DNA of 64,000 bases, taken from Auricularia sp. M13 (lineage: Eukaryota; Basidiomycota; Agaricomycetes; Auriculariales; Auriculariaceae). Below, one piece after another: positions 14,894 to 41,039 of the stretch. The first letter of the stretch is position 1. Each line of letters begins with the position of its first letter. The position numbers were made by a program, and so were the translations under genes. The stretch covers positions 930,001 through 994,000 of the forward strand of contig CM073193.1 in NCBI GenBank assembly GCA_037042915.1, read 5' to 3'. The notes beneath the pieces are model-generated. The model ran no database searches. It worked only from the letters and a program-made list of their open reading frames with translations, and was not told where the DNA came from.

Positions 14894-17645
14894 ATGAGTT
14901 CTTGGACCTCCAACACCTATGGAAACCAACCATTTTCTGACGGCATGGACGACATGTTTGATCTGCCGCGTTCTTGGTGGTCGTTCGAGCCCGGGCTGCC
15001 CGGCGGTCGATTTGGCAAGATCGGTCTGTCCATCCGAGTAGACGGCGCTGCCCAACCTCTCTTCGCAGTCGATGTAGATCTTTTTTCCCCCCAAACTCCT
15101 ACGGCTGAACTTGTGCGTCGTCTGGACATTGCCACGACGAAGGACCGCTGCGCTATTTGGCGACATACCAGTGAGGAGGCGGACAACTCTGCGACACCGC
15201 CGGAGAAGGACTGCCCTGAGGTGCGCCAGGTTAGCGACAGTCCTATTATGCGAGCTGAATCAGATTCTGCACAGGCATGCTTTTGGACGCTGTGGTACAG
15301 GCACTATACCAACTCGGACCCGCCGTCCGCCAGAGACCTGCTTCGCCTTCGCCGAAATGTGCGAGGCACTTCTGCAGATGCCGCGGAACTCGTCCACCTT
15401 CTGCACATCATATTTTCTATCCCGAGTCAGCATGTCATCACCCGGCTGTCTGAGGCTATGGCTGCCAGCAACGTTGAAGACATCTTGGTGCGTAATGGGC
15501 TGCAACAGTCAATTGCGTGACGAGCCCCTCAGAAATACGGTCCCATTTGCGTCGATCTTTTCTCCATGCTCGACGACTATGACGCCAAGTTCTGCAAGTG
15601 GATGCATCGCGAAGTCGTCTTACAGGCTTTGGGACTATACGGCGACATGGATGATGGCACCGTGCTTTGGACGCACTCCATGCTTAACGAGTGGCAGGAG
15701 CGCCTTGAATTTGCTGTAGACGATTTCAAAAGGCTGCAAGCGAGCGCAAAGGTTGTTAAGTCATCAAGTATCTCCGACCTTCCTCCACCTGTGAACGTGA
15801 GTTATTAGGCACGGCATTACTGGATTTTCTAAACGAAGTTCAGACTCGACAGTCGTTGCCTCTGCCTCCGGTGAATACCCAGCAAGTGGAAGGTGTGTAA
15901 TGTCTAGGACATACGACGGCGCTCATCATTTAACGAACTGGCAGCAGTCGAGCAACCGGCTTCCCCACCTCACTATCTTGCACGGCAAACAACTAGCCCA
16001 TCCATCTCCGAGCGCCATCCGCTCGCATCACCCACCCTTACAATAGATATGGCAGAGTTGAGCGAGGGGGCGGTAAGTGTATCAATTTGGTCGTTCACAT
16101 CGTCATTGCTCATCCAAGTGTCGCCTTTCCCACAGACCACTATGTACGTGCAAGAGGTCGCAGGTGGGTAAAGTCGTTCAGACCGTATTTAAGAGCGCTC
16201 AACCACGCAGGCGAACGTAATGGCCCGCCGCCGCCCAGCCCATTGCGCAGGAGGACAGGGGCTAGAGCCATCGTCTCTGAACACAACCCAGAAATTCCTT
16301 CCAGCCCAGTTCTACGTACGGCACCGGCGGATGGCATTTTGGCAAGTATCTCAGTCGAATGATGCGTCGCATCTTATTTGGCCGCAGCTGTCGCCGTCCA
16401 GCATTTGCGAACGCCCATTGAGTATGTGACCCTGTTCCCAGCCCGCAATTCTCAGACTGATTATGTGTGAAGATGCTGAAATTTACTATGAGATTATTCG
16501 ACCGCATTCTATTAATCTCTTGACCCGGCTCTATGAGGGCTTCTTGCTGCCCGCCAATGCGAACGAGGCTTACATGGCGCGTATAATGCCACCCATACCA
16601 TGTCCTTGGCATTGCTAAGTGCAATAACAGCCGTTAGCAATCAAGGAGATCACTGCAGAAGGCAGCGATGCGTGGATTGAGTCGGAGGTAAAGTTTCGCT
16701 GTCGGTCGTTCCCGCCTGCCTTTTATATCTGCACTCAACAGGCCTGGAAACGCGATATATCTGTGCGGCGAGAGCTTGGTGCCGTCGCCGAAGATATTGC
16801 ATACCCTGTCTTGGGGATCTACAGGAGACCGCAAGCGCTACCCATCTTTGCATCGCCGTGGAGTTCGGCAGGCAACATTACCCAGTACATCGCGAAGCAA
16901 CCCAACGAGGATTCTTTCGACAATCTCGATGCCATTCTGGATCTGGTGCGCATATCCGCACGCTGTGAAACGGTCTTTGACTCTTGGACTAGATGATCCA
17001 GCTTCTTCGCGTTGTAGCAGGTGGTATGTATTCTCGAGAAAGATACCATCCGGCCCTCTTCTAAACGGCTTATAGTGCATGCTGCTGGCATCGTCCATGG
17101 TAACATCAAAGGGGTGAGCAAATCTTCGTTAGAACTGCGTGCAGAGAGACCGACCTCGTTCAGAACAACGTCCTAGTCACTGCAAGCGGGGAACTGAGAC
17201 TGTGTGGTTTTGGTGCCTACCGCACGGACCGAAGCAATGTTTCCAGCGTCGTTCTGGCCGACGAGCACGCGATCGTCCTCCAGAAATCCGAGATGTTCAT
17301 GAGCCCAGAGCTGCGCGAATCAGGGTGTCCCACGATGGAGAGCGACATGTGGGCCGTTAGTTGCGTATGCATCGAAGTACGTCATTGGCTTTCTCATGGA
17401 TGCTGCATGCGTCTCATTGCTCCTGCGACCAGATGTATCTTGCGCGTCACGGATATCTGGATGCTGCAGCTCTGATGACGCTTTCCGAAGAAGCTCGCCC
17501 ACACATCAACTTATCCGTTCCACAACATGTCTGGGATCTGCTTGAGATCAACTGGTCGCTGGTACCGAGCCAGCGACTTTCGGCGCAGACCATGTATGTT
17601 CACTTGATGGCACTTCGGTCCGGTCCCACGTCGAGTCGAACGTAG
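14894..17645 (+). CDS. Gene A: N-terminal helical module plus predicted pseudokinase
   Basis: Fourteen exons (14894-15487, 15533-15796, 15844-15892, 15945-16072, 16136-16163, 16211-16345, 16388-16421, 16456-16580, 16638-16687, 16742-16945, 16993-17020, 17076-17113, 17164-17376, 17433-17645) give about 700 residues; ATG at 14945 is an alternative start. The N-terminal module (about 1-290) has the blocks CAIWR, ACFWTLWYRHY, YGPICVDLF and WMHREVVLQAL, shared with C, D and E. A Pro/Ser linker follows, then a kinase fold with APIKEI (beta-3 Lys), LPIFASPWSSAGNITQYI, the catalytic loop IVHGNIKGNN (Asp to Asn) and CGFGAYR in place of DFG. Catalysis is therefore unlikely. The exons around 16345-16456 (one intron of 34 nt) are the least certain. 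Confidence 0.7.
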
Positions 17646-18315
17646 GTGTTCGTTTCACTATTGGAGAAATAGGGCTCTATTATGCGCAAAGCTGGGCTTC
17701 CGCCAGTCACATCCCGGAGCGTTGCCCTATCAGGCTAGTTCCGTCCCGACGTACTTACTTACTATTACTACTATGCCTGATTTCTGTACTACGATTCGCA
17801 GAACCTCGGAAATCTCAAATATATTGTGTTTCACCTTCAGCTGGCTTTCAGCATGTACTGGTACACGCCATGATCCGGAATTTAATCGGAGGCAAGTTTT
17901 CCTGGAAATAGCCGACATTGCACGTGACCGGCTCTCGACTGTACCAACTGGCTGCAACTGGACGCCCTGCCGGCCATGGGAACTTGGCTCATTAAGGGTT
18001 TGATGTGCTTTCACTTCTGCAAGCTCTTATCGAACCCGCTCCCAATCGATCATGCACTCTGCCGACTGCCCTTCGCTTTAGCCGCCGCACTGTCGCGCCG
18101 CGCAACAATGAAATTGTCCTACGACAAACCCGACATCTCCAAGCGTCCCTGCAAGTCCTGCAAGGTTAACAAGGACATTCAAAGCAAGCGTTGCTCCAAC
18201 ATTCCACTTCTCCGTGTGTTGGTGATCTCATAATCAGGTGGCCGATTGCCGGGTCTTGTTGGTGCCGCCGAGTAGCCTCTCGTGCTGAGAGAATACATAA
18301 TAACGTATCCTGAAG
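17646..18315. other. Spacer between gene A and pseudogene B
   Basis: Expected here if B were whole would be the N-terminal module and kinase N-lobe. I could not find either. A short open frame from about 18108 (MKLSYDKPDISKRPCKSCK) has Cys pairs but no recognisable domain. Confidence 0.4.
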
Positions 18316-19268
18316 CGATGGAAGCGCGAAATGCTTGTGTAGTACACGCTAAAGCATCATAACATCCTTCCCATCTATGGAGTCTGTATTGGGCTGAATG
18401 ACTTTCCTGCACTCGTATCTCCTTGGTGTAGCGATGGGAGTCTCACTACCTACGTTAACACACGAAGGAACGGTGACGTTCCTATCATTAGCCTGTGCCT
18501 CGACCTTGTAAGCCGTCCTTCACCGACTCTTGGAACAACTCAGTGACAGCTCTTAGCTTGAACAAGTGCTCAGCGCAGCAAAATATTATGAGTTCTTATT
18601 TCTGAGATGCCTTCGCTACTCTTCGCTTATCACGATCCTCGTTCAAGTGCACGAGCAGAAGTCCCCCCATTATCCATGGCGACCTGAAGGGTGTAAGTCC
18701 ACAGCTATACATAATATACTGCCAGTTTATCCAATACGCTTGCTTGATCTAGGGGAATATATTGGTCGCAAGCGATGGGAGGCTTCAATTGTGCGATTTT
18801 GGGCTCTCAATAGTCCACGCCGAGTATGGGAGTCTATCCTTGCAGTCCACGGACGCCACTGCCCGTGGGACTATTCCATTTATGAGCCCAGACCTCTTCA
18901 TAGGAAGGCCGACAGTTCATAGTGACATGTGGGCCGTGAGCTGCGTATTCGTCGAGGTACTGCCGCAGATTCCTTCCTGCGACAAGTCACGCAGCTGACA
19001 AGTCATGCAGATGGTCTCGGGTTTCCTACCGTACCACGATAAACCAAACGCTGCGGGGTTAATTATGGCCATCGTCTCGGGAGAGTTCCCCAAGCGTCCT
19101 GATGGGCTGTCCGAGGAGCTGTGGCGTCTCATTGCCACGAATTGGAACAACGTACCTGTGCAACGATTGTCGGCCCGTACGATGCTCGGCCGCGTTCACA
19201 CCTTGCGTGCACAACGGCTAGCTGGAGAACCCGAGCAGGACAGAAGCTCAGTACGGCCTGAGCTGTGA
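18316..19268 (+). pseudogene. Copy B: 5'-truncated kinase pseudogene related to kinase D
   Basis: Five exons matching the last five of kinase D are recognisable: 18316-18507 (192 nt, identical length to D), 18557-18587, 18648-18692, 18753-18956 and 19011-19268 (258 nt, as D). They encode ILPIYGV...FPALVSPWCSDGSL, LEQVLSA, IIHGDLKG, LQLCDFGLSIV and a complete C-lobe. Three lesions are seen relative to D: a TAG where D has a Trp codon (in RWKREMLV*YTLKHH), loss of the GT donor after 18587 (ATGAGT where D has GTACGT), and one extra C in a C-run before HGDLKG. The N-lobe and N-terminal module are missing. The well-kept C-lobe suggests recent decay. Confidence 0.75.
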
Positions 19269-19596
19269 GACTCTGAATTCAGACTGACTCCCGACGGACG
19301 TCGCGTTCAAGCGAACGCAGTGTTCTTGTGCAGTCTACCCGTGCTTTTTATTGTCCGCCTTTGACCTATACATACTAATAGTCCTGATATCTTAATCAAT
19401 TTTTCCTTGCATATCACACGATTCTGAGCAAAATTCCGAAGGGTTGCAAGCGTGAGAAGATGATCAGCTTCGGCGGTCTCTTGGATCCGCTTGGCCCCGA
19501 GTCCGTTCGACGGCTCTTGCTTCCTACCGTGACCGCACTTACCGGCACGGCGTCCAACCTCGCTCGTTAGGCCGCCGCTCGTTATTTTGTGCCTGC
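19269..19596. other. Intergenic, promoter of the aspartic protease
   Basis: About 330 bases. A minus-strand open frame that continues into the protease exon has no protein-like features. Nothing else is seen. Confidence 0.35.
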
Positions 19597-21765
19597 ATGT
19601 GGTCCCTGGAATTATTACTGGCCACTGCGTGGCTCTCGTCCGTTGCTGCGGTCCACATTCCTGTGCGCCAGTACCAAAAGCGCAGGCCACATAGCTCGGT
19701 TTCGTTCCACGGTGCCCGCGCAGCAACAAACTGGAGCCCAGCCAACACATGGCGTATCCTTGCAGCCACAGGACCGACTGATATTGGCCTCCGGTGCGCC
19801 GTTCCCACGTTGTTGTCGCTCTGACTTACAGTTGGCTGCAGGACAAGTCGAGACCTCATTTACATCGCGGATGTAAGTCTAATATTGCCCTCGCTTCCTC
19901 ATGATGACTGTATGCTTGGTATACTGACCGAGAAATCCAGGTAACGGTCTCGGGCACAGGTATGGCGGTTAATTCAGGTGGTTAACAGAGCTGATCCCTG
20001 CCAGACTATCCTGTACAACTGGACACCGGCTCGTCTGACCTTTGGGTACATACAAACCGGGGAATTGCCAATGCTCATACGACGGTTAGTGGCACCAAGG
20101 TTGTTCGGTTATCGCTGACTTTAGTGAGCAGGGTTTAACGTACAACATGACCGTGAGGCGACCGCGTTCACGGGGTTTCATCTACTGACAACGTGCAGTA
20201 CGGAATTGGCTACGCCTACGGCAACATTGTGACCGCGCCAGTCGAGTTTGCTGGATTCACATTGCCGCGCCAAGCACTGATCGACGCCGTCGACGCGTCC
20301 AACCCCGTGCTCAATCTCGGCGCCGTCGGTGTCCTCGGACTGGGCTTTACCGGCCTGTCTGCCATCGACTCGACGGTGAACGGCACGGGCGAGGCGTACG
20401 GCCGCTCGCTCCTGTACAACATCTTCGCCCAGGATGCGTCCGTGCCCAACTTCATCACCTTCCTGCTCTCCCGCAGCAACGACCCATCCGCGCCGGTGGA
20501 GGGCAGCTTCACCATCAGCGAGACGGACGACGATTACACCTCCATCACGAGCGCGCCAAAGATCTCCACATGGCCCGTCGACTCGCCCATACGGTGGAAC
20601 GTCCTGCTCGACGGCTTCGCGGCGGGCGGGAAAAGGTTCGCCGTCGGCACAACTGTGCCCAAGGTCCAGAGCGGCAAGGCCGTCATCCTCCTCGACAGTG
20701 GCACGACGTTCACGTGAGTTCGCGCTGGCTTGATGTACGTAGCTCACCTCCCCGCGCAGCTATGCTCCCGACTCTGTTGTGGATGCCATCTACTCCGAGC
20801 TCGAGGGCGCGTTGTTTAGCAGTGACCTCGGCCAATGGGTCGTTCCCTGTGATACCGAAGTGCAGGTATCGCTCTACATTGCGTGCGTCTTGTGACACGC
20901 GGAGCGACAACGTCCTTACATGTCGCAGTGGAAAACAGTACGATCTGCACCCTCTCGACATGGTCGTTCCCAGCACGTCGGACCCCAAGGTCTGTGTGGG
21001 CAGCTTTATCCCGATGAGCCTGCCCATCGCGGAAGGCGAATTGTGAGCGGCTTGTCTCTCCTACGGAGCCGCGCTAACGTGTTCAGTGACTGGCTGGTCG
21101 GCGTCAACATCCTGCGCTCATTCTATTCGCTGTATGATTTCGGCGACCCCGTTCACGGCGGCGCCGTGCAGCCCTTTGTGCAGCTGCTGCAGCTGCGCAC
21201 GGCCGCGGAAGCCAGCGTCGACTTCCACAAAGTGCGTGGCGGCGAGCCGGCGGATGGCACAGCAAACTCGGCGCCGACGGACGGCGGGTCGACGGTGACG
21301 CCTCACCAGAGCGGCGACGGCAGCACGGGAGGCACCGGCAGTAGCGGTGGCACGTTCGACAACATCAGCGCGAGCGTGCGCGAGAGCATCGGCAAGCTCG
21401 TGGATTACATGCCCGCCATGCTCGGCGTGCTCGGCGTGAACGTCGCGATCTTCGCTGTTCTCTTCGTTGGCGGCATGATCTGGTTCCTGCGCAAACGCAA
21501 GACGAAGGGCCGCCCGTCGCCTCTCAGCGGCGAGTACAAGGCCGTCAGCACGAGCGAGGACAATGGCAGCATGCGCCAGCGCTCGAGGACGCCGCTGCCG
21601 CCGTCACCTATGACCCCTGGTTTCCCTCAGCATGTTATCGAGCAGCAGCAGCCCGCCATAGCACCAGCACCTCAATATGACTCTGCGTCATTGCCTCTGC
21701 GCCGCGGACTGAGGCCGCCCATGCCATTCGCGAACGACGACATGCGGCACTCGACTGCGTTCTGA
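19597..21765 (+). CDS. Membrane-anchored pepsin-like aspartic protease (family A1)
   Basis: Nine exons (19597-19793, 19842-19872, 19941-19959, 20005-20084, 20132-20152, 20199-20713, 20760-20882, 20929-21042, 21087-21765) encode 592 residues. A signal peptide (LLLATAWLSSVAA) opens the protein. The two catalytic Asp motifs are present: VQLDTGSSDLWV near residue 90 and AVILLDSGTTFTY in the second lobe. Further A1 landmarks are GVLGLGFTGLS and DWLVGVNILRSFYSLYD. A Gly/Ser/Thr-rich stalk is followed by one transmembrane helix (MLGVLGVNVAIFAVLFVGGM), then RKRK and a roughly 90-residue cytosolic tail rich in Pro and Gln. This is yapsin-like topology but with a true membrane helix, so it probably acts at the cell surface or in the secretory route. 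Confidence 0.88.
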
Positions 21766-22692
21766 TCGCCTCGCTCTTGCTCTCGCGTCTGATCTCCGTC
21801 GCTCGCTTTCCGCCTCCACTCCCTCCCTCCCATCCTTGACATCCTCCGCGCCTTTGCCTTCTCGTCCACTCCTGGTTGCACGCGTCCACTTGCTCATCGC
21901 TCGATGTTTTCCCCCTTTTATTTCTTGACACTCCCTCGCATACCGTAGGTACAGTAGATTGCATATCCCCGCCATGGACATGACTCGGTTACTCCTCCCA
22001 CCCGCTTTCCACGTCTGTGTGATCTATGCTGGGTTTGCCTCTTGCCTCAAGTTGATGACCTATTCACACCGTGGTTGCTCCGACTCATCATGCGACTATG
22101 CTTGCATGTCCTGGCTGTGCGCAGACGGAAAATGGGCTGCATCGGAAAGGCGAACAGGCGGTCCCGCATGCATGCGCACAGCGCCAAGCTGACCACACCT
22201 CTCAAGAGGCTTCGGACTCACCGATCGTGGACCTTCGACACACGTATTGTTGCGTCACTACAAGCCGTGAAGCCGCGATGTGCGCATGCGCTCAGTTCCG
22301 AGAGCCAGGCTTCGAATTAAGTACATAGTTGGTTCGTTTTACTCATGATCAGTTCGGTAAGTGATCGTGACTGGCAATCATCCACGTGGCAAGCGTACAA
22401 AACGCTGGCGTACTGATGCGGTGTTCGGACGCGGCGATCCTCCAGCATGCTCACAAACCCTCCCGCGCGTGAGGTCAAGCGTGCACAGCACCAATCCTGA
22501 TGTGCTTCCTAGCATTCATAAGTATCTCTTGCAGCAAGGCGACGTTCTGTTCGTCTTTTTGAGTCTCCGTCAAGGTGAGTCTGTCGCTAGTCTTGCCAGC
22601 GATGAGCCTGTTCTCATTGCCGTATTCTGTGTCGCACTATCCGCTGGGTACAGTGCACTCCAGTCCGCAGCGACGACTTATACAGGAATTCG
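21766..22692. other. Intergenic region between protease and beta-helix gene
   Basis: About 930 bases, with a C/T-rich stretch just after the protease stop (21770-21930) that looks like a 3' UTR. Several short overlapping frames show no family features. No repeat or RNA gene was recognised. Confidence 0.4.
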
Positions 22693-24240
22693 ATGGCGTT
22701 CAAGACCGTATTCACTTTGGTGTCGCTGCTGACTGCGTCGGTCAGCGGTGCCTTCGTTCGCTACCCGCGCCCGTCGATCTACAACAAGTCGGCACATTTC
22801 TCGCTCAAGGTCAATGGTACCGACATGTACACGGTCAGCTACGCCAAGTACGATTATGTGCAGTGGTCGATGAGCGAGGGCCCGCCCACCGAAATTCGTA
22901 TCAAGGCTACGGACCAGAGCGCGATCACGTCCTATGCCATCTCGCCCGCCGCATTGCCTATCCAAGCCACCGTCCAGGGCAACGAGCTCATCTTCAGCAT
23001 GAAGAAAGCGCACTACCTCATCATCAAGATCAACGACATGAAGGAGTTCGTCGCCATGGCCGACCCGCTCGAGACTGACGCCCCTACGCTCGGCGCGAGT
23101 GGCGTGTTCAACGTTGCCAACTACGGCGCAGACAACACCGGCGCGGCGATCACCAATGGTGTCCAGGCTGCTCTCGACGCTGCCGGAAAGACGCCCGGTA
23201 GCACGGTCTACGTTCCGCCTGGGCTCTACCTCGTCGGCAACATCGTCATCCCCACCAAGACCAAGCTGTACGTTGCCGGCGGTGCGGTGCTGCGCTTTAC
23301 TGGCAACAAGGCCGACTACCAGGTTATGTACGAGAAGTCGGACCTGTTCGAGGGCACCTGGTGGATTCGCACGGCGAAGGACTCGACGGACATCAAGCTC
23401 TTCGGGCGCGGCACGATCGACGGCAATGGGTTCAACACACGCAACAACAAGTTCATGGCGTCGCTCGTCGTGCCCGCGGGTACGACGAACTTCAAGATGG
23501 ACGGCGTGCTTGTGCGCGACAGCTCGTTCTGGGCGGTGAACGTCGTGCAGGTCACCAACGCCGAGTTCACGAACCTCAAGATCCTCGACCGCTTCGAGGT
23601 CACGCAGAACGACGGGATCGACATTAACGAGTCGCGCACGGTGCGCGTGCGGCGAGTGCTCGCTATCGCGAACGACGACAGCTTCTCCGCGAAGACGTGG
23701 CCGGAGAACACGGGCACGACCGTGCCGTACCCCTACCCGCCGCGCGCCTCGTCTGACATCGTGTTCGACGACTGCCTCGCGTGGACGCTGTGCTGGGGCT
23801 ACAAGGTCGGCGAGGGCGCGTGGGAGGACCAGGCGTCCATCACGTTCAAGAACAGCTACGTGTACCACGCCGGCGTCGGCATCGGCATCCACCACAAGTT
23901 CGGCAGTGCCGCGCTGCGCAACATCACGTTCGACAACATCGACATCGAGCGCCTGAGCGGCGCGCCCGCCGGCCAGGCTGCGTGGGGCACGTTCTACGTC
24001 AACGACGTCAGCCAGGGCGTCGGGCCCATCCAGAACCTCGTAGTCAAGAACATCCGTGCACGCGTGCTCGGCTCGCTCAAGGGGCTTATCCAGGGCCAGA
24101 GCGAGGCTTCCAAGATCAGTGGCGTCACGTTCACTAACATATACTTGCGCAACGACGCCAAGCCGGCCACTACGCTCGACCAGCTCAATATGAACCTCAC
24201 GAAGTTCTACGAGAACGTTCAGATCAAGAACACAGTGTAA
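22693..24240 (+). CDS. Secreted right-handed beta-helix glycosidase, GH28-like, intronless
   Basis: One uninterrupted frame of 515 residues starts with a signal peptide (MAFKTVFTLVSLLTASVSGA). Residues about 20-120 look like a beta-sandwich lead domain (FSLKVNGTDMYTVSYAKYDY). Then comes a pectin-lyase-fold beta-helix opening with FNVANYGADNTGAAITNGVQ and STVYVPPGLYLVG, with later turns such as LFGRGTIDGNG. Candidate active-site segments are TQNDGIDINES, AIANDDSFSAK and GVGIGIHHKFG, resembling the NTDG, DD and HG blocks of GH28. Polysaccharide hydrolysis outside the cell is inferred; the substrate is unknown, and GH49 or another pectin-lyase-fold family is possible. Absence of introns is striking beside neighbours with 3-11. 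Confidence 0.75.
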   Translation: MAFKTVFTLVSLLTASVSGAFVRYPRPSIYNKSAHFSLKVNGTDMYTVSYAKYDYVQWSMSEGPPTEIRIKATDQSAITSYAISPAALPIQATVQGNELIFSMKKAHYLIIKINDMKEFVAMADPLETDAPTLGASGVFNVANYGADNTGAAITNGVQAALDAAGKTPGSTVYVPPGLYLVGNIVIPTKTKLYVAGGAVLRFTGNKADYQVMYEKSDLFEGTWWIRTAKDSTDIKLFGRGTIDGNGFNTRNNKFMASLVVPAGTTNFKMDGVLVRDSSFWAVNVVQVTNAEFTNLKILDRFEVTQNDGIDINESRTVRVRRVLAIANDDSFSAKTWPENTGTTVPYPYPPRASSDIVFDDCLAWTLCWGYKVGEGAWEDQASITFKNSYVYHAGVGIGIHHKFGSAALRNITFDNIDIERLSGAPAGQAAWGTFYVNDVSQGVGPIQNLVVKNIRARVLGSLKGLIQGQSEASKISGVTFTNIYLRNDAKPATTLDQLNMNLTKFYENVQIKNTV

Positions 24241-24536
24241 ATTCAGACGAATGGACAATGTAACTTAAGAATGCTGTACATAACCAAACGCAGCTATTTG
24301 ATCGTGTCGTAACGTTTCGCGCACTTCGGCATGAGTGCATCTGGTACTCACATAGGAATGAGCCCGTCAGCCCATACGTGCGCATTCGAGCCATGCAAAG
24401 TCCGAATGGTTGGAGTGTCAAGGTGTATCATGTATGTGGCAACAGTAAAATAAGGTTAAAACGCCTATCTGAATTTCTACTCAATGTCAGCCATGACTTG
24501 CCACTACAAATAATAATACTAATAGGCCCACCAAGC
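24241..24536. other. Short gap, convergent 3' ends
   Basis: About 300 bases between the beta-helix gene and the KRI1 3' end. It is AT-rich near 24440-24530 (AATAATAATACTAATA). No feature is recognised. Confidence 0.35.
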
Positions 24537-27223: not shown

Positions 27224-27344
27224 GTTTGTTGTTTCAAGTAATTTCAGGGAAGGCCGGCGCCGCGGACAGCAGTCATAGCGCGGGACATCGGAGCCCGAAA
27301 CCGGAGCCGCCACTTGTCCCCTTGATTCAGTCGCATTCGCCACC
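27224..27344. promoter_or_regulatory. 121 bp divergent promoter of KRI1 and TFIIF-alpha
   Basis: The two ATGs are only 121 bp apart and point away from each other. The interval is GC-rich and I see no TATA box. Sharing of regulatory sequence is inferred from the short spacing. Confidence 0.55.
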
Positions 27345-29528: not shown

Positions 29529-29996
29529 GGGAGTCGGTGTTGCGTTATTTTGGGATTCGTGTGTCGGTGTGTGTGTGCCGAGCGCGGCGCGCACAGGACT
29601 CATCTGTCGGTGCGCTTTCCGACAAGATCACTGCTCGTTTGTTTGGGAGGAACCGTTGCACCCTGCACAGCGCTGGAGGGTTGGTGTAATTGTAAACTGC
29701 TGTCGTGTATATCTTTTTAGCTATTGCTTTGAAGCACATTGAACTTGGTCTGCTGTACTTCATTGATCGTAAGTGCACAAAACTCACCGTTCCGCTGTAC
29801 GGCACCTGGGGATCCGGCGTCATCGCAGCAACGCACTCATCATGATAGGTATCCGAGGCTGTGCTGGTGCCGTTGATACGCAGCGCTGATATAAAAGGAC
29901 GCGCCGCCGAGCATCGTTTCCCCGTTCCCCTCCTTCCTTTTTCTTTTTTTCTTCCTTTTTTCGCCGTTTCGGTCGTCCTTTTTTTCTTCGAGCAAT
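29529..29996. other. Intergenic, 3' UTR of TFIIF-alpha and promoter of chitin deacetylase
   Basis: Contains the TATA box listed separately and a T-rich leader (29931-29990) directly before the ATG, common in highly expressed fungal genes. Confidence 0.5.
29890..29896 (+). promoter_or_regulatory. TATA box of the chitin deacetylase gene
   Basis: TATAAAA lies 107 bp before the ATG and is followed by a pyrimidine-rich leader, a spacing usual for strong fungal promoters. Confidence 0.6.
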
Positions 29997-31519
29997 ATGC
30001 GTTCTTCTGTTTCGAGCGTTCTTTTCGCTGCTGCGGCTTTTGCTGCCGTTGCTAGCGCCCACCCCATTGCGCATGGAGACGGAGAACACGTCGAGGCGCG
30101 CGCGCTCCCCGGCGAGTGGTTCCACGACGAGGCGCACCCCGTGAACGCGCTGTTCCGCCGCCAGCCTGCTGAGGATGCGCCGGCGACTACGGCTGCCCCT
30201 GCGGCGCACTTGCCGCCTGTGGGCTCTGACGGTCAGCATGCTTTGCATTGCGGTCTTGGCGACGCGCTGACCCTTGGCATCGCATCCTCGCAGCATGGAA
30301 GGCCCTGTACCCGACGCCGGGCAGCACGCCGTCCTTTGACGAGAAGGACCTCCCGGAGGCGTGGGTGGCTGCGTACAAGGCCGCCGTCGCCAACGGCAAG
30401 ATTCCGGCCATCCCGCCGACGTACATCGTCGAGGGCCTCGACCCCGTCTACGCCGAGGGCTTCCACGCGGACTCTAAGGATGTCTGCTCGGCGACTGTGC
30501 AGTGCCGCGCGGAGGGCGACGTGTGGGACGCGCCGGCCGGCTTCATCGCCATCTCGTTCGACGACGGCCCCGCGGAGGGCAGCCCCGTGCTCAACGACTG
30601 GCTGTCGTCGAACCACGTCAAGGCGACGCACTTCATGATCGGCGGCAACATCCTGGAGAACCCGCAGGAGTTCCTGCGCGCGTTCAGGATGAACGGCGAC
30701 ATGGCCGTCCACACGTTCTCGCACCCGTACATGACGGCGCAGAGCGACCTTGGTGTCATTGCCGAGCTCGGCTGGACGATGCAGATTATTGCTGATGCCA
30801 CGGGCGGCCGCATCCCCCGCTTCTGGCGCCCGCCGTACGGCGACATGGACAACCGCGTGCGCGCCATCGCGCACGAAGTCTTCGGCCTCACGCCCGTCAT
30901 GTGGAACAAGGACACCAACGACTGGGCCATGCCGACCGACCAGACGCCCGCGAAGATTGCGGAGGACATGGAGACGTGGACGTCGGGCGACAAGACGACC
31001 GGCCTGATCATCCTCGAGCACGAGCTGACGCCCGACACCGCCAACGTGTTCATCAACACGACGTGGCCGGCCGTGCAGAAGTATCACTGGCGCCCGCTCA
31101 GCATCGCGCAGCTCTTCGGCGGCAAGGAGATGATGGCCTACGCGAACGCGAAGGACAACCTCTCGCCCGTCACGCAGCTGCCCAACATCGTGTCCTCGGA
31201 GACCGTCACTGGCAGCCAGACGCTCCCGACATGGTACAGCCAGAGCGTGTCCACCAGCACGCCCGCGCCGACTTCCGTGTCGACGGAGGTGCCGGCCAGC
31301 ACTGAAGTCCCGGGCGGCGCTGGCGGAGGCGCTGTCAACCCTGGCCCGGCCGGCGGCGACAGCTCGAGCGGCAGCCCGCCCGACACGTCTTACCCGAACA
31401 GCAGCGAGGCCAACCAGGGCACGCTCGAGGAAGACCCGGACAACGCGGCATTCGCCACGGCGCGCCCGAGCGCCGTCCTCGCTGCCGCCGCCGCCCTCGC
31501 GATTGCGTTCCTTGCGTGA
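29997..31519 (+). CDS. Chitin deacetylase (carbohydrate esterase family 4), probably GPI-anchored
   Basis: Exons 29997-30231 and 30294-31519 encode 486 residues. It removes acetyl groups from chitin to give chitosan in the cell wall. The N-terminus (VLFAAAAFAAVASA) is a signal peptide. All five CE4 motifs are present in order: SFDDGPAEGSP, VHTFSHPYM, FWRPPYGDMDNR, WNKDTNDWAM and GLIILEHEL. The metal-binding Asp and the two His are intact. The tail is rich in Ser, Thr, Pro and Gly and ends with a hydrophobic segment (VLAAAAALAIAFLA), fitting a GPI anchor. The first intron is 62 nt and canonical. Confidence 0.93.
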
Positions 31520-32442
31520 TTCACGCGACATGACGCTTCGTCTCCCCCCACATTACACTGGCACCGTTCAGCCCGAGGGGAGGGGGGCCGTGTCGCCGGG
31601 CCGACGCGGCCGTGCCGTTGGTTCGTTGCGCAGGTTCGACAAACGCTGGTCAGGGAGCCTGGATGGACTTCGCTCGCCGTGGACTTTTTGAGGAACGCTC
31701 GTTGATAGACTCATGGCCTTTTGCTCACCTTAGTACTTTCTTACTTGTGGCCGTCGGCTTTGCACTCCCACAGGATGTGCGCCGCGGTCATCGTTTTTAT
31801 CGTATATTATATTTATGTTGGCTCCCTCAGCTGATCGTGTGAGTGAGTGACGATAGCCAGGGACGCGAAGACAACTTGCGGAGTTTTTCCGGGATGAGAG
31901 ACGCAGAACACTGCAAACACGCTTGTCGTCGTGGCTATCAAGTGTGTACGCTGTGACTACGCCCGCCCCGCCAATGCGCGTCAACGATTCGCAACTCACA
32001 GCCCAATACTACTCACCCCGAGCCTCCCCGAGCAAGCGCCTCGTTCGGCAGCGAGTTTGCCGTCCAGGTGAAATTCATGAAGAACTTGTGCCGAATCACG
32101 CGACGCAGGGCATACTGTAGAGAACGCCGCTCCAGCCTTTCCTCGGGTCGCATGTGTTCCCAACTGCCAACCAAGGCCCGGTCTCCGTCGACTCGTCCTG
32201 TTCCATGTCGCCTTTAAATCAATTTCGTATCTGGCAGTACGTGTTGCAGGTTCTGACGGTAGTTCGGTCTTTAACAATAACGCGTACAGAGCGAAGAAAA
32301 GTGCGTAGACCGGATGCGGATGACGCCGCTTCCATTGCTTTAGCGCCGGCGTGCAACAGTATTCGATTGTTGACCACGACTGCTGCCAGAGCTTGCCAAG
32401 GAGCGAAAACTATCGATAAGCGCACCTGTGCTCGCAACCAGT
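31520..32442. other. Intergenic region
   Basis: About 920 bases. The right end is the promoter of the metallophosphatase gene. No frame with family features, no repeat and no RNA gene were recognised. Confidence 0.4.
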
Positions 32443-33495
32443 ATGGCCTACATCAACGACGTGCAGACCTACCCGCCCCCGGTTGCGGCGGGGCCGGAGG
32501 CCACGGGTGCGTTCTACGCCGAGCAAGCGCCGCTCGATACTCGTATACTTATGGTTTCATGCGCAGATTTGGATGATCCCCAGGCCATCCAGGGTGCGTG
32601 CTGGGGAAGCGCGAAGATTGCGGCTGATTGCAGCAGTCATGAGCGATCTGCACCTCGAGTTCATGTTTCGCGTCAAGGATGGGACAGCAGACGATCGCAA
32701 GCCCGGTTACGAAGTCTTCGATTTTCCAGTCGCAGCCCCGAACCTCGCTCTCCTCGGCGATATTGGTTTGGCAAAACACGAGGGACTTCACAGATTCATC
32801 GAGAAGCAGCTCCGGCGATTCAAGCGTGTGTTCTTCGTGCCAGGCAACCACGAATTCTATGGCTCATCCCCGGTGAGTTCAACTTTATGTGCGTGGTCTC
32901 ATGCTCAGATGGCACAAAGAGCAGCGCTATCTCTCAATTGCAGTCATTTGCGGACAAGATGTCTTCAAAACGTAGCGAAACCTTTGGAGAATTCATCCTC
33001 CTCCATCGCACGCGCTACGATCTCTCGCAAAACGTAACCATCCTCGGGTGCACCCTATGGTCGTTTATACCATCCTTCGCGGAGGACACCGTCTTCCGGG
33101 TCCTGAATGATTTCCGGCAGATCGAGCAGTGGACGGTCAGGTCGCATAACGCCTCCCATGAGGCTGACCGCAGATGGCTCTCCCGGCAGCTAGCTTCGCT
33201 ACGTGATTCTGGGAAGCGCGTCCTGGTGCTGACACACCATGCACCCACGACACCGGGCACGAGCGAGCCGCGCTTCGAGCATGAAGGCAATCTCCCGTCT
33301 CACGCGTTCGTAACGCCCCTCAGCGCCGAGAAGGACCTGTGGGATCGCCCTGTGGCGACGTGGGCGTTCGGCCATACGCATTTCAACTGCGATTTCGTCC
33401 GCGACGGCATACGCGTTGTTGCCAACCAACGCGGCTACGAGGCCTTCGAGTCTCACCGCATCGGATTCGTCGAAGACAAAGTCATCCTTGTATGA
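32443..33495 (+). CDS. Calcineurin-like metallophosphoesterase
   Basis: Exons 32443-32593, 32637-32872 and 32944-33495 encode 312 residues. Metal-binding motifs of the superfamily are all visible: VMSDLHLEF (DxH), LALLGDIGLA (GDxx), FFVPGNHEFYG (GNHE), VLVLTHHAP and WAFGHTHFN (GHTH). The first intron (43 nt) was chosen because it joins an upstream frame (MAYINDVQTYPPPVAAGPEA) in phase to the DLH motif; if wrong, the protein could start at the ATG at 32639 and have 261 residues. A cytosolic phosphodiesterase or phosphatase role is likely, substrate unknown. It is convergent with gene E, 124 bp away. Confidence 0.85.
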   Translation: MAYINDVQTYPPPVAAGPEATGAFYAEQAPLDTRILMVSCADLDDPQAIQGACWGSAKIAADCSSHERSAPRVHVSRQGWDSRRSQARLRSLRFSSRSPEPRSPRRYWFGKTRGTSQIHREAAPAIQACVLRARQPRILWLIPGEFNFMCVVSCSDGTKSSAISQLQSFADKMSSKRSETFGEFILLHRTRYDLSQNVTILGCTLWSFIPSFAEDTVFRVLNDFRQIEQWTVRSHNASHEADRRWLSRQLASLRDSGKRVLVLTHHAPTTPGTSEPRFEHEGNLPSHAFVTPLSAEKDLWDRPVATWAFGHTHFNCDFVRDGIRVVANQRGYEAFESHRIGFVEDKVILV

Positions 33496-33619
33496 TGTTA
33501 CAGTGCGCCTCGGTCCCGAACTGCAGACGCTACGACCTCAGCGCACTCAACTGATGGAACAGACTATTTGTGACAAGATTAGTACAGCAGGTTTGCGTAA
33601 CACGGACCTTGCTGCTGCA

Positions 33620-34601
33620 CTACTGCAGCAGCAGATGCACTGGCTCGTTCACGTGAGTCACAATACGGAATGGATGAGCCGGATCGTTCGCCTCGACAAG
33701 AACAGGGCGGCCGTCGGAGGCGTCCTGCATGCGATACGGACCCATGGTTACATAGTAAAGGCCTTGAGGTGCTGGCTCAGGAATGACGGGGTCCGGCGTC
33801 TCGGGCTTCCTCGGGGAACGCATCCACTCGTAGTAAGCATGAACGATGTCGTCCAGCGCAGCCAGCCGCTCGGTGATCTTGGTCGCCTGGCGGCCGTTCC
33901 AGTCGTCCAGCCTGTGCGGAAGAGCCAGCTCCCGCAAAACTAGTTGCCGATGAAGCCAGACTTTGACCTGCTCGAGAGCTTGGTGCGCAAGCCGGCGATA
34001 CTCGATGCATCTTGGTCCGAATGTCTGCGACACAGGTTATTGTTAGATGATCGGTATGCCATGCCCTGGATTTTCAGGCTCACCGCTATAGTGAGAGCAT
34101 CATTGGACGTAATGGCCTCCCGAAGCAGCTCGACGTGTTCCACGACGCGCATCGAGAGAAAATGGGTGAGCATTTCCCGAAAGTCGAGCCCGAGCGGTTC
34201 GGTGAACCAGACCGGCGCCCTGAGAGACAAGAACAATTGACTGAACCAGCGCAGGGTCTCCGCGTCGGTATTCTTCTTCATTTCCGTCTTATAAGCGTGA
34301 ACAACGTTCCAGAACGCCACCTTGCAGCGCGGCGTAAGTACTAGTAAGTAGCCACCATCACGCCGGAGGCGGACGAAATGCACGAGGACCGGCGGCGTAC
34401 CTCAACATTGCGATCCGTCCATATCGCACCTCCGTCGTTGCGCACGGCGTTGACGACTAAGTGCGAGTTGTCGTTGACTCTCTCGATCGTCACCGGCTGC
34501 AGCGGGATTTCGCGCCTCAGAGCGACGGGCAGTCGATGAACGCTCGGCACGGGCGCCGCTGCAACGACTAGCTGGCCTTCAGGGCGCGGTACTAGGGCCA
34601 T
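33620..34601 (-). CDS. Gene E: stand-alone copy of the kinase-family N-terminal module
   Basis: Exons 34601-34401, 34320-34084 and 34024-33620 encode 280 residues. All four blocks of the module found in A, C and D are present: GGAIWTDRNVE, VAFWNVVHAY, FGPRCIEY and WLHRQLVLREL, with introns at the same two places as in D. After the module the protein continues about 70 residues (YYEWMRSPRKPETPD onwards) and stops; there is no kinase domain here or in the bases up to the neighbouring gene. It may be a truncated duplicate or a genuine single-domain partner of the kinases. Frame and splice sites are intact. Confidence 0.7.
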
Positions 34602-35003
34602 GGTGTTGGGGGGCGAGAAGGAGAAGAGGACGAACTCCGAGCCGCGTCTGTTTCAAGCACTCCGGGGAATGGGTTCCGGTGATGTCAAGCTGTTACGGAC
34701 AAGGCTCCCCCGCAGCTCTCCGGTCGCGCTCGACGGGAGCCTCGTGGCGATGTCCGTATCCCACACACGGCTGCAGAGCGCCGATCGCCGCGATTGCAGC
34801 AATGTTTCATTGTTTGTGGCCGTTTGGATTTCCGAAGATGATATCTACTCGGAGACGGACACGGCAGATTGAGGTCTATTAGTCAATTGTCAGGGCAGAG
34901 TCAGGGCCGCATTGGTGAGTACGAAGAAGGCGTGGGATTTGTTAAATCCGCCAGGCTACAAATACAGCGTGGGTTGGAATGTTTTTAAAACTCGATGGAT
35001 TCG
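34602..35003. other. Spacer between gene E and kinase-like gene C
   Basis: About 400 bases that should contain the E promoter and C 3' UTR. A plus-strand open frame here has no protein-like features. Confidence 0.35.
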
Positions 35004-37193
35004 TCACTCCCCCACAAGGTTGTCCTGATAGCGCAGGATCCACAAACGAGTAAGCATGAAGGATGCAGATAAACGCTTCTTTGGGTCGCGGAAGTTCTCC
35101 CAGATGAGGTTCCAGAGGTTTACCGTGACCCCGCTTGGCTTCCGATTGGTCGGAGCTCTGCCCAACTTGATCTCGCCGTTCTGTAGCTTGTGGCATGGGA
35201 CTTGGCCAGTGAGCATCTGTAGTATGCCGGTCATCGACTCGGACGCAAAATCGCAGTTCAGCACACTTGCCTCGACGAAGGCGCAGCTTGCAGCCCACAT
35301 ATCACTCTCTGGCGTAGGTCCACTGATCCTCGTTGTGAGCTCTGGACTGAGGTATGCCAATGATGCTTGTTCCAGGTGACGATCCGTCCCGATCTGCGGT
35401 AATCCGATCCCGAAATCGGTCAGCTGGAGCCGTCCGTCTTGCGAGACCAGCAAGTTTGTCTGCGAGAGACTGTCAGTGTAGTGATGGAAGATGAAGCTGA
35501 AATTCTATACCGCTTTCAAGTTCCCATGACATCCCTCCTTGCTTTGGCCATGGACTGCATTATGTGAGTGAGGCCACTCAGTTCCGGCCGCTAGGAAACG
35601 CACTGTATTTGAGCGCACTGAGCAGTTGCTCAGACTTCCACGGGAAATGCGGAATCAGCATGGGCATCTGCAACTTGGAATAAGGCTGCTGACCAGATCC
35701 AGTACAATGGTAATCACACGCAGTTCGGCATGTACTTGAGAGCGCCGTGATGCGATGTACTTGTTGACGGTCGTACACCACGGGGAGACCAACGCGGGGA
35801 ATCTGCCCAGAGCTGTGACCTCACCATACACACCATACACAGGAAGGATGTTGGGATGCTTCGGGGAGGTCCGAGCCTTGAGATCTCTAAGGAAACGCTG
35901 CAAATGAGATTAATAATCCACTATATCGTGGAACATGTTATGCAAACATACAGGATTGATCACATTGTCACCAATCGTCTCCCATATGAAGGATTTGATC
36001 GCAACGACCTGTGAAAATGCGGTAGGTGAACCTCCATTGAACAGGCTTCATTCTTTTCACTGACTTCGCGAGGCTTCGTGCGGCTTTTGTGGGCTAGTTT
36101 GCCTCTCATGACTTTTGCCCATCCCGTCTCAGGGACCGCCTTCCTCTTCTCGACGTCGGTGATTAACGAGGACAGATCTCTATCTGAAATTTTCGGCTTT
36201 GAGTAGCACGAAGACTTGGAAGGCGTGAAATCATCGCCCACATGGTTTATTATCCAACGTCCACGGCTTGGTTTCGAGCTGCCCGAAATGAGCGCTTCCA
36301 ATCGCAGCTATCAAGCAGCGGACCTTCATCGGCAATTGAACTCCCTGACAACAGTCGTTATCACATTGAATGGCCACTCGAAAAGCATTTGACTTACTGG
36401 ATAAGCCCCAGTGGTAGCGCTTGTAGAAAGCCAGCTCTCATAGGCGACAACTACCCCATACAATGCGGCCATCCACTGGCTCAGTTGCGTCGCGGTCCGC
36501 CCGCACGCGTCGTTCAACTCGTTGGGAAGTTTAAGCTCTCGCAGAACGAACTGACGCCGCAACCACGCTCGAACGCGCTTGAGCATCCACTCCGCTCGCT
36601 CCTGATGGCGTTTGCAATCCGGACCCAACTTCTGGCAGAGTTTCAACCGGGAATGAGTACAAGGGTTTCTCGTCAAATTGAAATGAGGCTCACCTTGATC
36701 TCGTCGTTATTCTTGAGACGGAGGGCTTGGTTCAGCTCACCGATTTGTGCCGTGACGAGTTCAGAGAAGCACATCTTGTCCATGAAATGCGGATCATGTC
36801 CGCACGGTTTGCTCTTGGAAACGCTCTGTTTGATGGCTTGAAGCCACTGCCCGGATTCCGCAGATTCCAACGCAGTTCTCTGCCTGTACAACCAGCAGAA
36901 GTTCCAGAAGAAAATCTGCACGCTGTGAGGGGGGGCGGACAGTGTAGACAGCTGCGCACCTCGAGATCTTCGTTAGCCCATATGGCGCTGCTGTGCAGGT
37001 ACACCTCCCGTGCAATCTTCTTCGCGAGATCCACCAAGCCGCGTCTCGGGAGAACGGCCACGGAGATTTGCAGAGCTGAGGACGTGCGGTACGGCGTTGA
37101 GAGCGCGACGGTCAGCTTACTCTCGGACTCGTGTAGGGTTATGAAAACCTTGAGGTTTTGTGCGGGGGTCATGTCGGCTTGTAGTCTAGACAA
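35004..37193 (-). CDS. Gene C: N-terminal module plus HGN-type kinase-like domain
   Basis: Eleven exons (37193-36960, 36915-36694, 36631-36398, 36344-36324, 36214-36065, 36008-35952, 35897-35694, 35634-35604, 35554-35511, 35459-35271, 35216-35004) give 532 residues. Module blocks: SSAIWANEDLE, IFFWNFCWLY, LGPDCKRH and WLRRQFVLREL. The kinase part has a poor glycine loop (ETGWAKVMRG), VVAIKSF (beta-3 Lys kept), PNILPVYGVYGE, ALVSPWC, catalytic loop CHGNLKATN (Asp to Asn) and LTDFGIG (kept). Loss of the catalytic Asp makes normal phosphotransfer doubtful. The last intron (35270-35217) uses a GC donor (GCAAGT) and is 54 nt, so retention would keep the frame. Exon lengths match D and A at several places. 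Confidence 0.72.
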
Positions 37194-37768
37194 ATGTGTC
37201 GAGCCGAGGTTAAATAGGTTGATGCATCGGCCAGACAGCGTGAGCGTCTGCAGCAGGGTGGTCTCCGGTGTGAGCGCAGCGTAGCAAAGGCGTCAAGATT
37301 CAAGACTGTGAAACACGAAGCTTGAAGGCTTGTGCCCGACTGTATTCGTGCGTGACCTGCCACCCGAGATGGACTGCATGCCGGAATCGTTACAAAGGCG
37401 CTGAATGACAAATCCCTAACACGGAATTGAGCTTGCACCTCAGCCGCACATGGGCCCATGTCAACGGAACTGAGGCGCAACTCGAGCCGGGAACAACATG
37501 GCTATGAAAGCTCAGGTAAAGAGCCAGATTATGCAACCGTTGGAATCTGTACGCCCGAGTCAAGAATTGCCCCGTCATGATGCCATGGAACGGACATTGA
37601 CGTTGAGGGAGAAAGCATGCGTGCAACAAAAGACCACGAAAGCCTCCGAGGCGCTGTATTCGGGCTCTTTTCCGCTCTGCCGCTGGAAGAGAACCCGTTG
37701 TAACGGCTGGCCTAATACCAGTTAAAGCGCCAGGCACGCTCAGCGAGAGCACGTATACTAACAGAGAA
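37194..37768. other. Upstream region of gene C
   Basis: About 575 bases. It contains the 14 bp palindrome ACATGGGCCCATGT near 37448-37461. No gene is seen. Confidence 0.35.
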
Positions 37769-38230
37769 GATACGCGCGCCTGATAAGACCAGGATGCAGA
37801 ACGAGTTCAGAGTCGATAGAGACAGCCGGCGCTCGAATCGAAGAGCAGCCCATACAACCAGAGTAAGAAGAGTCTCGCACAGGTCTCCCAGCGTTAAATT
37901 TCGTGGTACAGACGCTTTCTTCGACTGTGAAGAACTGGACGTGACATGAATCGAAACGCGGTGAGAGGTGGTCGGGGACTCGGATAGAACGCCGGAGCGG
38001 AGTTTATTTTCGTATTTTTTCGCGTCACCCTTGAGTTACTCCTGCATGTTCCGCCAACTGCAGTGACGCGACGTGCCGCCACCTCCACCGAATTCATTCT
38101 AGATGTATTCTCAAGTCTGGCTGCGCGCCCGAGCTTGACTGGCTACTCTATCACTGCGCTGCTTGTGCGCTGCTTTGCAACTCCGGACCACTGCTTCGGC
38201 ACGGGCTGCATTAACTGTGTGGGCGCAGCA
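37769..38230 (+). repeat. Decayed duplicate of the PPR gene promoter and first exon
   Basis: Matches 41502-41930 by eye. The anchors are the 17 bp GATACGCGCGCCTGATA (37769-37785 and 41502-41518), CGGAGTTT(A/G)TTTTCGTATTTTT, and ATGTTCCGCCAACT followed by GCCTCTACCTCCACC-like sequence. The two copies lie about 3.7 kb apart in the same orientation and each sits upstream of a divergent kinase-family gene (C here, D at the other copy). Confidence 0.75.
38045..38230 (+). pseudogene. Remnant of PPR gene exon 1
   Basis: Starts with ATGTTCCGCCAACT exactly as the intact PPR gene at 41795, but a stop (TGA) follows after six codons and further insertions and deletions are seen. Similarity fades near 38230, corresponding to about 41930 in the intact gene, just before the 3' end of kinase D. 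It is a by-product of the segmental duplication rather than a working gene. Confidence 0.7.
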
Positions 38231-38520
38231 ATACAAGTCTGGGTATGAGAATGCGCACTATGCTCGAGCGCACTGAGGAAGGTGCTCGCCCTGGGCACAT
38301 ATTCGGAACTGAATCAGTATGCGAGTCCAACATTCGAAATACGCTTGTGCTTCCTGAATGGGTTTTTCGGTATGTATACAGAAATACAACAGCTTATTAA
38401 ACATGGTCCCGGCTCTCCACGGCGAGATACAACCAGGAGGGGCACGTTTTACAAATTTTGAGACACCATACAAAATAAACGAGTTCATCCAGCGCAGTTC
38501 TACTCGGCTCCTCCCAAGCC
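38231..38520. other. 3' flank of kinase D
   Basis: About 290 bases between the PPR remnant and the kinase D stop. One breakpoint of the segmental duplication should lie in this interval. No gene is seen. Confidence 0.35.
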
Positions 38521-41039
38521 TCAAAGCACGAAGATTACAGAGTTTCTGTGTGAGTCTGGTTCTCCGGCAAGACGTCGTCCCCGCAAGCTGAAAATGCGGC
38601 TCAGCATCGCGTGAGCCGACAGTCGTTGAACGGGTTCCTGGTTCCAATTAGTGGAAATGAGGTTCCATAGCCCGTCCGATAACCCATCCGGGCGGGCAGG
38701 GAGCTCTCCATTATAAATGGCCATTATGATTCCGGGCATATTCGGTTTATCGTGGTAGGGCGGGAAGCCAGATACCATCTGAGGGGACGTAAGCCAGATG
38801 TCCAGTGTTTTGCTGGACGAAAGGAGTTGCCATACCTCGACAAACACGCAGCTCAGGGCCCACATGTCACTATGGACAGTGGGACGTTCGCCGTTGACTA
38901 GCTCCGGGCTCATGAATGGTAAAGTTCCACGACCAGCGGGGTCGGTGGACATCAAGGAGAGACCGCCGTGCTGCGCGTGTACCACCGAAAGACCAAAGTC
39001 GCACAGCTGAAGCCGTCCATCGCATGCTATCAATATATTCTTCTAAAAGGTACGGTCAGGTTTCTAGGCTCGCAGCTCGAGAATGTTGCGAACATACTCC
39101 TTTGAGGTCGCCATGAATAATTGGTAGTCTTTGCTCGTGAACTGTGGCGAATGTTACTGGCCGAAATAATATCCAAGCCCGAACGTACGATATTTTACCG
39201 CGCTGAGTACCTGCTCGAGCTAAGGCCCGTCAGTAAGTCATCGGAAAACGCAAGTAGAAGCGACTCACGAGATCGAGACACAAGCTGATCACAGGATATC
39301 TTGAATTCCTTCGAGCATTGATATACTCGGTAAGATTCCCGTCGCTGCACCACGGAGAAACGAGTGCAGGAAGGTCGTTGAGCCCGACAAGCACTCCATA
39401 GATGGGAAGAATGTTTGCGTGCTCCATCGCGGCCCAGACGTGCATCTCTCGGCGGAATCGCTAAAGGAGGCTCAATACATGGCGGGACAACGGCGCAGCT
39501 GAAGGCAGACCCTGTACATCACCTCTGGCTCTAGATCGCGAGAATGTAAGACCTTTACTGCCACAAGCTAGGAACACCATCAGTCCAAGGTTTGCGGAGA
39601 ATTGAAGCGGCTTATTTGAGCTCACCTCGCTCATGCCGTTGAAGCTCAGGACACCTTGGTATACGGTGGAGAAGTAGCCCTCGTCTGTCGGCTTGATGAT
39701 GTGAATAACGGACGAAAGGTCCAAACCTGGAACGACTCTCAGAACTGTCGAAGGGTGGCAATGATCGGACAGCTTACAAGTCATATCGTCGATCTGAACG
39801 TATTCGGGCTGAAATAAAATGAATATAATAACGGGAACAAGAAGAGAGGTCAGCGCACATATTTTTGGAAATTCCCATCACCGATATCTGAAAGGTTTCA
39901 TGTCAGGCCAGTGTCACACTCTTCCCATGGGTCATGGCAGTTTCAATCGCTGTAAACTCACGAGGAGGCGTCTGAATATCTTGATCATCATCGTCATCGT
40001 CTTCTTCAGGTTGCGAGATGTCATCGTCGCCGTCTTCTTCGGTTTCCACTGCGTCCGCCGAAGGATCACCGTCGTCGTGCGTGTCTTGGTCGTTAAGATC
40101 ATCCAGCCATATCTCGTATTCGTAAGTCACATCGTCCAGCGCTTCGGTCCAATGGGTGAATTGGGCTATCAAGGATCCTTCATAGTCCCAATCTGCCCAT
40201 TCCAACTCGAGCAGCACGAACTGACGTCTCAACCAGTCTTGAAGAAAGCTGACTTCTGTGTCAAGCATCTCGCAGCGTGCCTGGCAAGCTGGGCCATGTT
40301 CCTATGTACCATCATTCAGAAGCAATAGTAAATGGAGGCAGAGCCAGAACTTTGCGCACGGAGATGACGTTCACGTCATTGATCTTCAGCGCCTCTCGCA
40401 GCAGACCAATCCGCTCCTGGACCTCTGGAGGAAAACAAATGTCGAGCACCGCGCCAGTTCTCTTCCCTGGCGCTGACGTGGTCCAGACCCGGGTCCTGAT
40501 GTCTTCGACGACGTCGCTGACCCAGGCGCCTTCGTCGTCCGTCATGTCCTCGAGGATTAGGGGAAGCTGGTAGACAAAGTTCCAGAATGCGGTCTTCTAG
40601 GAATCAGTATCGTCTTAAAGTGCACAAAGAACGCTGTGCTCGCCTCTATTTTTGCGACCTTCCAGATGGCAGATGCATCCTCATCCACTGCATCTTTGAC
40701 GACCTGCAATAGGCGCAGCGTGTTGGTGGCATCTAACAGTGGGATCTGGAGATGGAGGAAGCTATGTGTGCGATATTTTGGTGGAAAGAGCACAGTCAAC
40801 GTGTTTTCATGACCGTCGGGCTGATCGGGCTGGGCGTAGCTGCCGTCTGCGAGACTGGAGGACAGGATGATCATGGCTAGGAAAGGGGCGCATGACTCAA
40901 TGAAAGCGCGCCGCAGCTCGCCGTTTCGTATTGAATCCGATGCCCAGCTCACAGAGGCGATGTAGTACCGAAGGACTGGCGGAAAGTATACATCTACAGG
41001 CGCGGGACTGAACCGGAAACCGGGCGAATCTAGAAGCAT
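38521..41039 (-). CDS. Gene D: N-terminal module plus apparently active protein kinase
   Basis: Eleven exons (41039-40644, 40596-40360, 40301-39920, 39886-39858, 39808-39626, 39567-39523, 39460-39269, 39219-39189, 39141-39098, 39042-38836, 38778-38521) give 667 residues. Module (about 1-340): DASAIWKVAKIE, KTAFWNFVYQL, HGPACQAR, WLRRQFVLLELE, then an Asp/Glu-rich linker. Kinase (about 370-650): loop DEGYFSTVYQG, LVAVKVL (Lys), NILPIYGV, LVSPWCSDGNLTEYI, IIHGDLKGKNIL (catalytic Asp), LCDFGLSVV, GTLPFMSPEL and SDMWALSCVFVE. The key residues are present, so Ser/Thr kinase activity is plausible. The first intron (40643-40597) has a GC donor. The closest relative in the window is pseudogene B. Confidence 0.78.

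Follow-up and report, generated by a model that had tools for sequence, protein, structure and literature searches.

A candidate N-terminal domain shared by a small family of predicted kinases and pseudokinases in Auricularia sp. M13

In a 64,000-nucleotide stretch of the Auricularia sp. M13 genome (contig CM073193.1, here C1, positions 930001-994000; hereafter the window), several kinase-like genes begin with a region in which the same short sequence blocks recur from gene to gene. Is this region a domain in its own right, and what might it contribute to the kinases that follow it? The original prediction held that four genes of the window (A, C, D and E) carry four blocks in the same order, that in three of them the blocks precede a kinase fold, and that its author knew of no named domain with this pattern. 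The module formed by these blocks is homologous in five genes, as profiles of its second and third exons establish, and is probably, judged from sequence, a protein-association domain, so far undescribed, that accompanies fungal kinases and pseudokinases of the TKL type. To the fuller reading, in which the module, about 200 residues long, is a real, unnamed domain (or domain pair) and the mark of a small one-contig family of such kinases and pseudokinases, with an association role for the module and catalysis by gene D, we assign a probability of roughly 0.4. All gene structures were modelled by hand from splice sites, and all gene models are predictions. The members and their parts are listed here in window coordinates, with E standing for the expectation value:

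14894..15220, plus strand: gene A, module exon 1, with the AIW block, ending in CPE
15275..15487, plus strand: gene A, module exon 2, with ACFWT
15533..15796, plus strand: gene A, module exon 3, with GPIC and WMHREVVLQAL
16631..17645, plus strand: gene A, kinase-like exons of a predicted pseudokinase (HGN; DFG changed to GFG); last exon 17433-17645; Pkinase E 1.3e-13 on 16631-17376
18316..19268, plus strand: gene B, a kinase relic 65-70% identical to the kinase exons of D, with an in-frame stop; no N-lobe or module seen
33620..34601, minus strand: gene E, module exons 34401-34601, 34084-34320 and 33620-34024, with a short tail and no kinase domain
35004..36232, minus strand: gene C, kinase-like exons of a predicted pseudokinase (HGN; Asp at the place of the alpha-C Glu; DFG kept); Pkinase E 1.3e-22; one GC-AG intron
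36398..37172, minus strand: gene C, module exons 36960-37172, 36694-36915 and 36398-36631, from splice models and a hidden Markov model (HMM)
38521..39808, minus strand: gene D, exons of a probably active kinase (VAVK, alpha-C Glu, HGD and DFG kept); Pkinase E 1.4e-39
39936..41039, minus strand: gene D, module exons 40659-41039, 40360-40596 and 39936-40301, the last continuing into an acidic linker

A fifth module gene, F, lies outside the window at about 5.03 Mb of C1 and has the full architecture of module and kinase-like part. The module consists of three exons of about 200 residues in total, with the blocks xAIW, FWN/T, GPxC and W(L/M)xRxxVLxxL. The 12 strings of the first three blocks (three in each of A, C, D and E) each occur once in the window, in the expected order and on the expected strands. 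The distance from GPxC to W(L/M)xRxxVLxxL is constant at 16 residues in A, C, D, E and F. As for the exon boundaries, exon 1 continues for 6 residues past AIW in C, E and F and for 20 in A; in D the figure is 1 or 6, according to which donor is used. The start of exon 2 lies two or three residues ahead of FW, and that of exon 3 two residues ahead of GP. Both module junctions are in phase 0 at matching places in all five genes. Thus, the intron positions first noted as common to C, D and E are borne out, and A fits both phase-0 places as well. Two junctions can be read in more than one way. Intron 1 of A is 54 nucleotides long and open in frame, so A is possibly unspliced there, and intron 1 of D has two candidate donors, a GT within KVAKIE or a GC after KVAKIE. 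Across the five genes, 3 columns are invariant in exon 1, 7 in exon 2 and 11 in exon 3. Identity between paralogs ranges from 18 to 43% by exon in the alignment, with C and F closer at 65-76%.

Homology was examined by leaving out one gene at a time and searching a profile of the remaining genes against the 1,510 six-frame open reading frames (ORFs) of the window, F being omitted together with C. For exon 3, the omitted gene was recovered at E 3.4e-17 (C), 1.8e-12 (D), 6.1e-19 (E) and 2.1e-5 (A); for exon 2, at 2.2e-5 (C), 4.8e-13 (D), 4.5e-7 (E) and 0.028 (A, the weakest). In 8 of 8 of these tests the omitted gene was the top ORF outside the model genes. The claim of four ordered blocks in A, C, D and E is thereby backed by HMMs for the second and third exons. 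The profile of exon 1 recovered D alone (E 7.9e-4) and did not recover C (rank 12, E 2.8), E (rank 8, E 3.9) or A (rank 28, E 11), so homology in exon 1 is argued from AIW, from its place and from the common intron.

A kinase-like domain stands behind the module in A, C and D, as first described, and F adds a fourth case; E ends after the module. A TKL-type kinase is expected to score above cut-off with Pkinase as well as with PK_Tyr_Ser-Thr. The Pkinase scores are 136.5 bits for D, 81.0 for C and 51.4 for A (cut-off 31.7), and those for PK_Tyr_Ser-Thr are 129.8, 58.5 and 32.4 (cut-off 23.1). By these Pfam profiles, the predicted products of A, C and D belong to the protein kinase superfamily and are putatively TKL-type, and the kinase part of F was assigned through its 67% identity to that of C. 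The landmark residues, read by eye on the family alignment, separate the members. D retains the VAVK Lys, the alpha-C Glu, HGD and DFG, and its kinase is probably active. The HRD-type Asp is replaced (HGN) in A, C and F, the DFG Asp is lost in A and kept in C and F, and C and F have an Asp at the alpha-C Glu place; by these residues, A, C and F are predicted pseudokinases. C and F share HGN and the alpha-C Glu-to-Asp change though they are only 67% identical in the kinase part. The ratio of nonsynonymous to synonymous substitution rates (dN/dS) between them was calculated by the method of Nei and Gojobori, a simple estimator applied to one pair. Over the 215 module residues, where the two are 68% identical, it comes to 0.36; over the 281 residues of the kinase part, at 67% identity, it comes to 0.55. 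Because both values are below 1, the HGN form seems to be kept under constraint.

Is the module an already known domain? The Pfam scan covered the modules of A, C, D and E and the kinase models of A, C and D, that of A without its last exon. Among the four modules no family passed its cut-off, and the sole match at E up to 1 was DUF6279 on C (0.032, below cut-off). A profile of five sequences searched against PDB returned 14 chains at E 0.57-3.1, none of them a relative. Seven of these chains belong to the nuclear receptor SF-1 and four are retroviral capsids that align with the exon 2 part; like the remaining three, we read them as chance. Pattern matches in viral and prokaryote collections (18 and 3) yielded none confirmed as a relative. 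AlphaFold models were computed from alignments of 4 and 7 rows. The exon 1 model runs beta-beta-alpha-beta (strands 6-11 and 21-26, helix 34-47, strand 52-55) and ends on AIW, at low confidence (predicted local distance difference test score, pLDDT, 57.6; predicted template modelling score, pTM, 0.36). The longer model of the gene A module has a beta-hairpin followed by helices (pLDDT 51.9, pTM 0.25). It is most confident in two long exon 3 helices (177-206 and 215-251), with means over ten-residue blocks of 57-73 from residue 181 on and of 42 for 171-180; these helices lend weak support, from a low-confidence model, to the view that the last block is helical. Contrary to the exon 1 model, it places the AIW stretch in a helix (31-57). 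Exon 1 may, going by its own model, be a separate small domain; the longer model disagrees. Foldseek returned 45 matches for the exon 1 model and 43 for the gene A model, none at E up to 0.001. A known domain was thus matched in none of the Pfam, PDB profile and Foldseek searches, in line with the earlier statement that no named domain with this pattern was known to its author.

The 52-Mb genome of the isolate (14 contigs) was searched in a loose, non-exhaustive first pass. Exon 3 of E, of C and of D gave 8, 9 and 5 matches as queries, exons 2-3 of A gave 5, and the consensus sequences of exon 3 and of exon 2 gave 11 and 7. Every match lay on C1. They comprised A, C, D and E in the window, the second copies of these genes at 4.67-4.76 Mb, and F, whose exon 3 matched as 77% identical to C. 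The two consensus queries found no further members, with the limit that a member as divergent as A could escape, A itself having been missed by the exon 2 consensus. From gene A on (14894-64000, the part compared), the window recurs inverted on the same contig, mostly 97-99% identical (C1:4640001-4760000). For the kinase matches at C1:820 kb and 1,125-1,151 kb, the matches listed include no second-copy partner, so the second copy seems to be a limited block. It is either a recent or segmental duplication or the other haplotype, incorporated into the scaffold. Equal scores at two places were also seen for some other kinase pairs, as if they too were repeated.

Several findings are consistent with an association role. 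The module occurs without a kinase in E, as an interaction domain could, and it is missing upstream of 3 of 3 other D-related kinases checked (2.5 kb each; best profile E 8.2). Its homology and matching introns, the pattern of catalytic residues, the constraint between C and F and the lack of a Pfam or PDB relative point the same way. In such an arrangement, the module would gather members of the family, or a partner common to them, D would supply catalysis, the HGN members A, C and F could be allosteric partners or decoys, and the module-only E could be an adaptor or competitor. A domain common to an intact kinase, to several conserved pseudokinases and to a gene lacking a kinase would offer a concrete way into the regulation of the TKL-like kinases of mushroom-forming fungi and, if undescribed, would be new to family databases. 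Three points weigh against the association reading. First, A is only 18-28% identical to the other members exon by exon. Second, the structure models are of too low confidence to reveal a common fold or interface and conflict on exon 1. Third, the second copies of both C and E are cut in exon 3, that of C by a 54.0-kb insertion (site at window 36544-36551, with an 8-bp target duplication) and that of E by an 11.3-kb insertion (site at window 33918-33932, with a 15-bp target duplication). With C and E interrupted there, both genes may be dispensable.

One alternative, already raised in the original prediction, is a sensor role: the module would recognise a ligand, or a protein of host or non-self origin, and thereby switch the kinase joined to it. 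Its position at the N-terminus, ahead of kinase-like domains, would suit a sensor, as would the divergence of the paralogs noted above. However, the searches of Pfam and PDB found no known sensor domain, and the module exons, D exon 3 apart, are 97.9-100% identical between the two copies, much like four neighbouring stretches (97.7-98.2%). Module exons no more divergent between copies than their neighbours give no sign of hypervariable recognition, and we consider a sensor unlikely; a hypervariable allorecognition locus is not favoured for the same reason. D exon 3 is 90% identical between copies, with 5 mismatches and a 33-base length difference. The linker that follows the module in D is rich in Asp and Glu (window 39936-40080), and it is in this exon that the two copies differ by 33 bases.

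The genes could instead be decaying lineage-specific duplicates, in which the function of the module has been lost and C, E, A and B are becoming pseudogenes. B, with its stop and missing N-lobe, fits this account, as do the interruption of C and E in the second copy and the loss of catalytic residues in A, C and F. Conversely, C in the window and F have open exon models with dN/dS below 1 in both parts, the module exons of A differ from the second copy by 1 base in 804, and D is intact. Decay of this kind is doubtful.

A further possibility is that exon 1 encodes a header with a ubiquitin-like (beta-grasp) fold, of the kind reported for Crinkler-type (CR) proteins and for SSK1-like signalling proteins. 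A helical domain and then the kinase would come after it, an architecture of CR-like header plus kinase. CR headers are predicted to be ubiquitin-like, and about one-sixth of CR C-termini couple a nuclease with a kinase domain, according to the part of PMC5289972 that summarises Zhang et al. (2016). The family may resemble these proteins in the beta-beta-alpha-beta order of the exon 1 model, which ends on the invariant AIW, and in the kinase further on. It differs in several respects. The models conflict at low confidence: the longer gene A model keeps the hairpin but has AIW in a helix, leaving the third strand in dispute. No ubiquitin-like or Crinkler model of Pfam matched exon 1 of the five genes up to E 10, a scan in which most weak matches were filtered out and which gave only Antimicrobial20 (0.12, on C) and DUF7469 (0.11, on D), both below cut-off. 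None of the 45 Foldseek matches to the exon 1 model was titled ubiquitin-like, the best being at E 1.9. No nuclease domain was seen in the four modules and the A, C and D kinase models, with F, the linkers and the last exon of A lying outside that scan. The family also has an extra helical part, and the homology of exon 1 among the copies is itself weak. A header of this kind is improbable. The corresponding combination, an undescribed ubiquitin-like-plus-helical header that would assemble one active TKL-type kinase, conserved pseudokinase paralogs and a kinase-less adaptor from one contig, is a similarly long shot that leans on the exon 1 model.

That the four blocks are chance similarity is barely credible: the low identity of A and the failure of exon 1 profiles to find A, C and E speak for it, but the leave-one-out HMMs, together with the matching intron places, rule it out for exons 2 and 3 and leave it only exon 1 outside AIW.

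How does the family compare with described systems? Proteins of the MLKL/HeLo type combine a helical N-terminal domain with a pseudokinase, and in the present family, too, the N-terminal region is predicted to be mostly helix and precedes a pseudokinase. The conserved Trp-rich motifs of the module differ from those of MLKL/HeLo, and no HeLo or MLKL-type Pfam family matched the four modules at E up to 1.

FslK kinases form a fungal lineage near the tyrosine kinases. Expansions of TKL and FslK kinases have been described in Laccaria and Agaricomycetes (PMC2838846, PMC3937382), and mushroom-forming fungi are reported to possess numerous TKL-like kinases, with functions that are still largely open (PMC3937382). 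The present family is comparable in its kinase part, which passes the Pkinase and PK_Tyr_Ser-Thr cut-offs. Most FslK members are said to have complete catalytic domains, whereas A, C and F lack catalytic residues. The passages considered in these two papers deal with the kinase domain and include no N-terminal module of this sort (PMC3937382, PMC2838846), and the term "N-terminal" is absent from the main text of PMC3937382. Among the papers listed in literature searches, one of them on pseudokinases in Agaricomycetes, none was on this module as judged from its title or the opening of its abstract, although the module may have been described in print.

The two insertions in the second copy each contain one ORF with RVT_1 and Exo_endo_phos domains (reverse transcriptase and endonuclease). 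These ORFs, which resemble those of long interspersed nuclear elements (LINEs), are 1,805 and 1,807 residues long and 46% identical over 1,668 columns; that of the 54-kb insertion sits 5.7-11.2 kb inside it. The 11-kb insertion has a T-run at one end which, with the 15-bp duplication, is a LINE-like trait. Each insertion falls close to VLREL in exon 3, which raised the idea of targeted insertion of a mobile element into the module. This is not favoured, as the target duplications differ (8 versus 15 bp), although the related LINE-like ORFs speak for it, a point weakened by the position of one of them well inside the 54-kb insertion.

A GC-AG intron in the kinase part is common to C (window 35217-35270) and F (C1:5029027-5029076). 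Judged by eye, one of the three D-related kinases checked for the module resembles a small GTPase domain. Two further kinase genes were recognised by eye in the window: a STE20-like gene outside the module family at 48747-50758 (GTPFWMAPEVI), and another TKL-like kinase with a different N-terminus at 52123-53705 (HGDLK, DFG).

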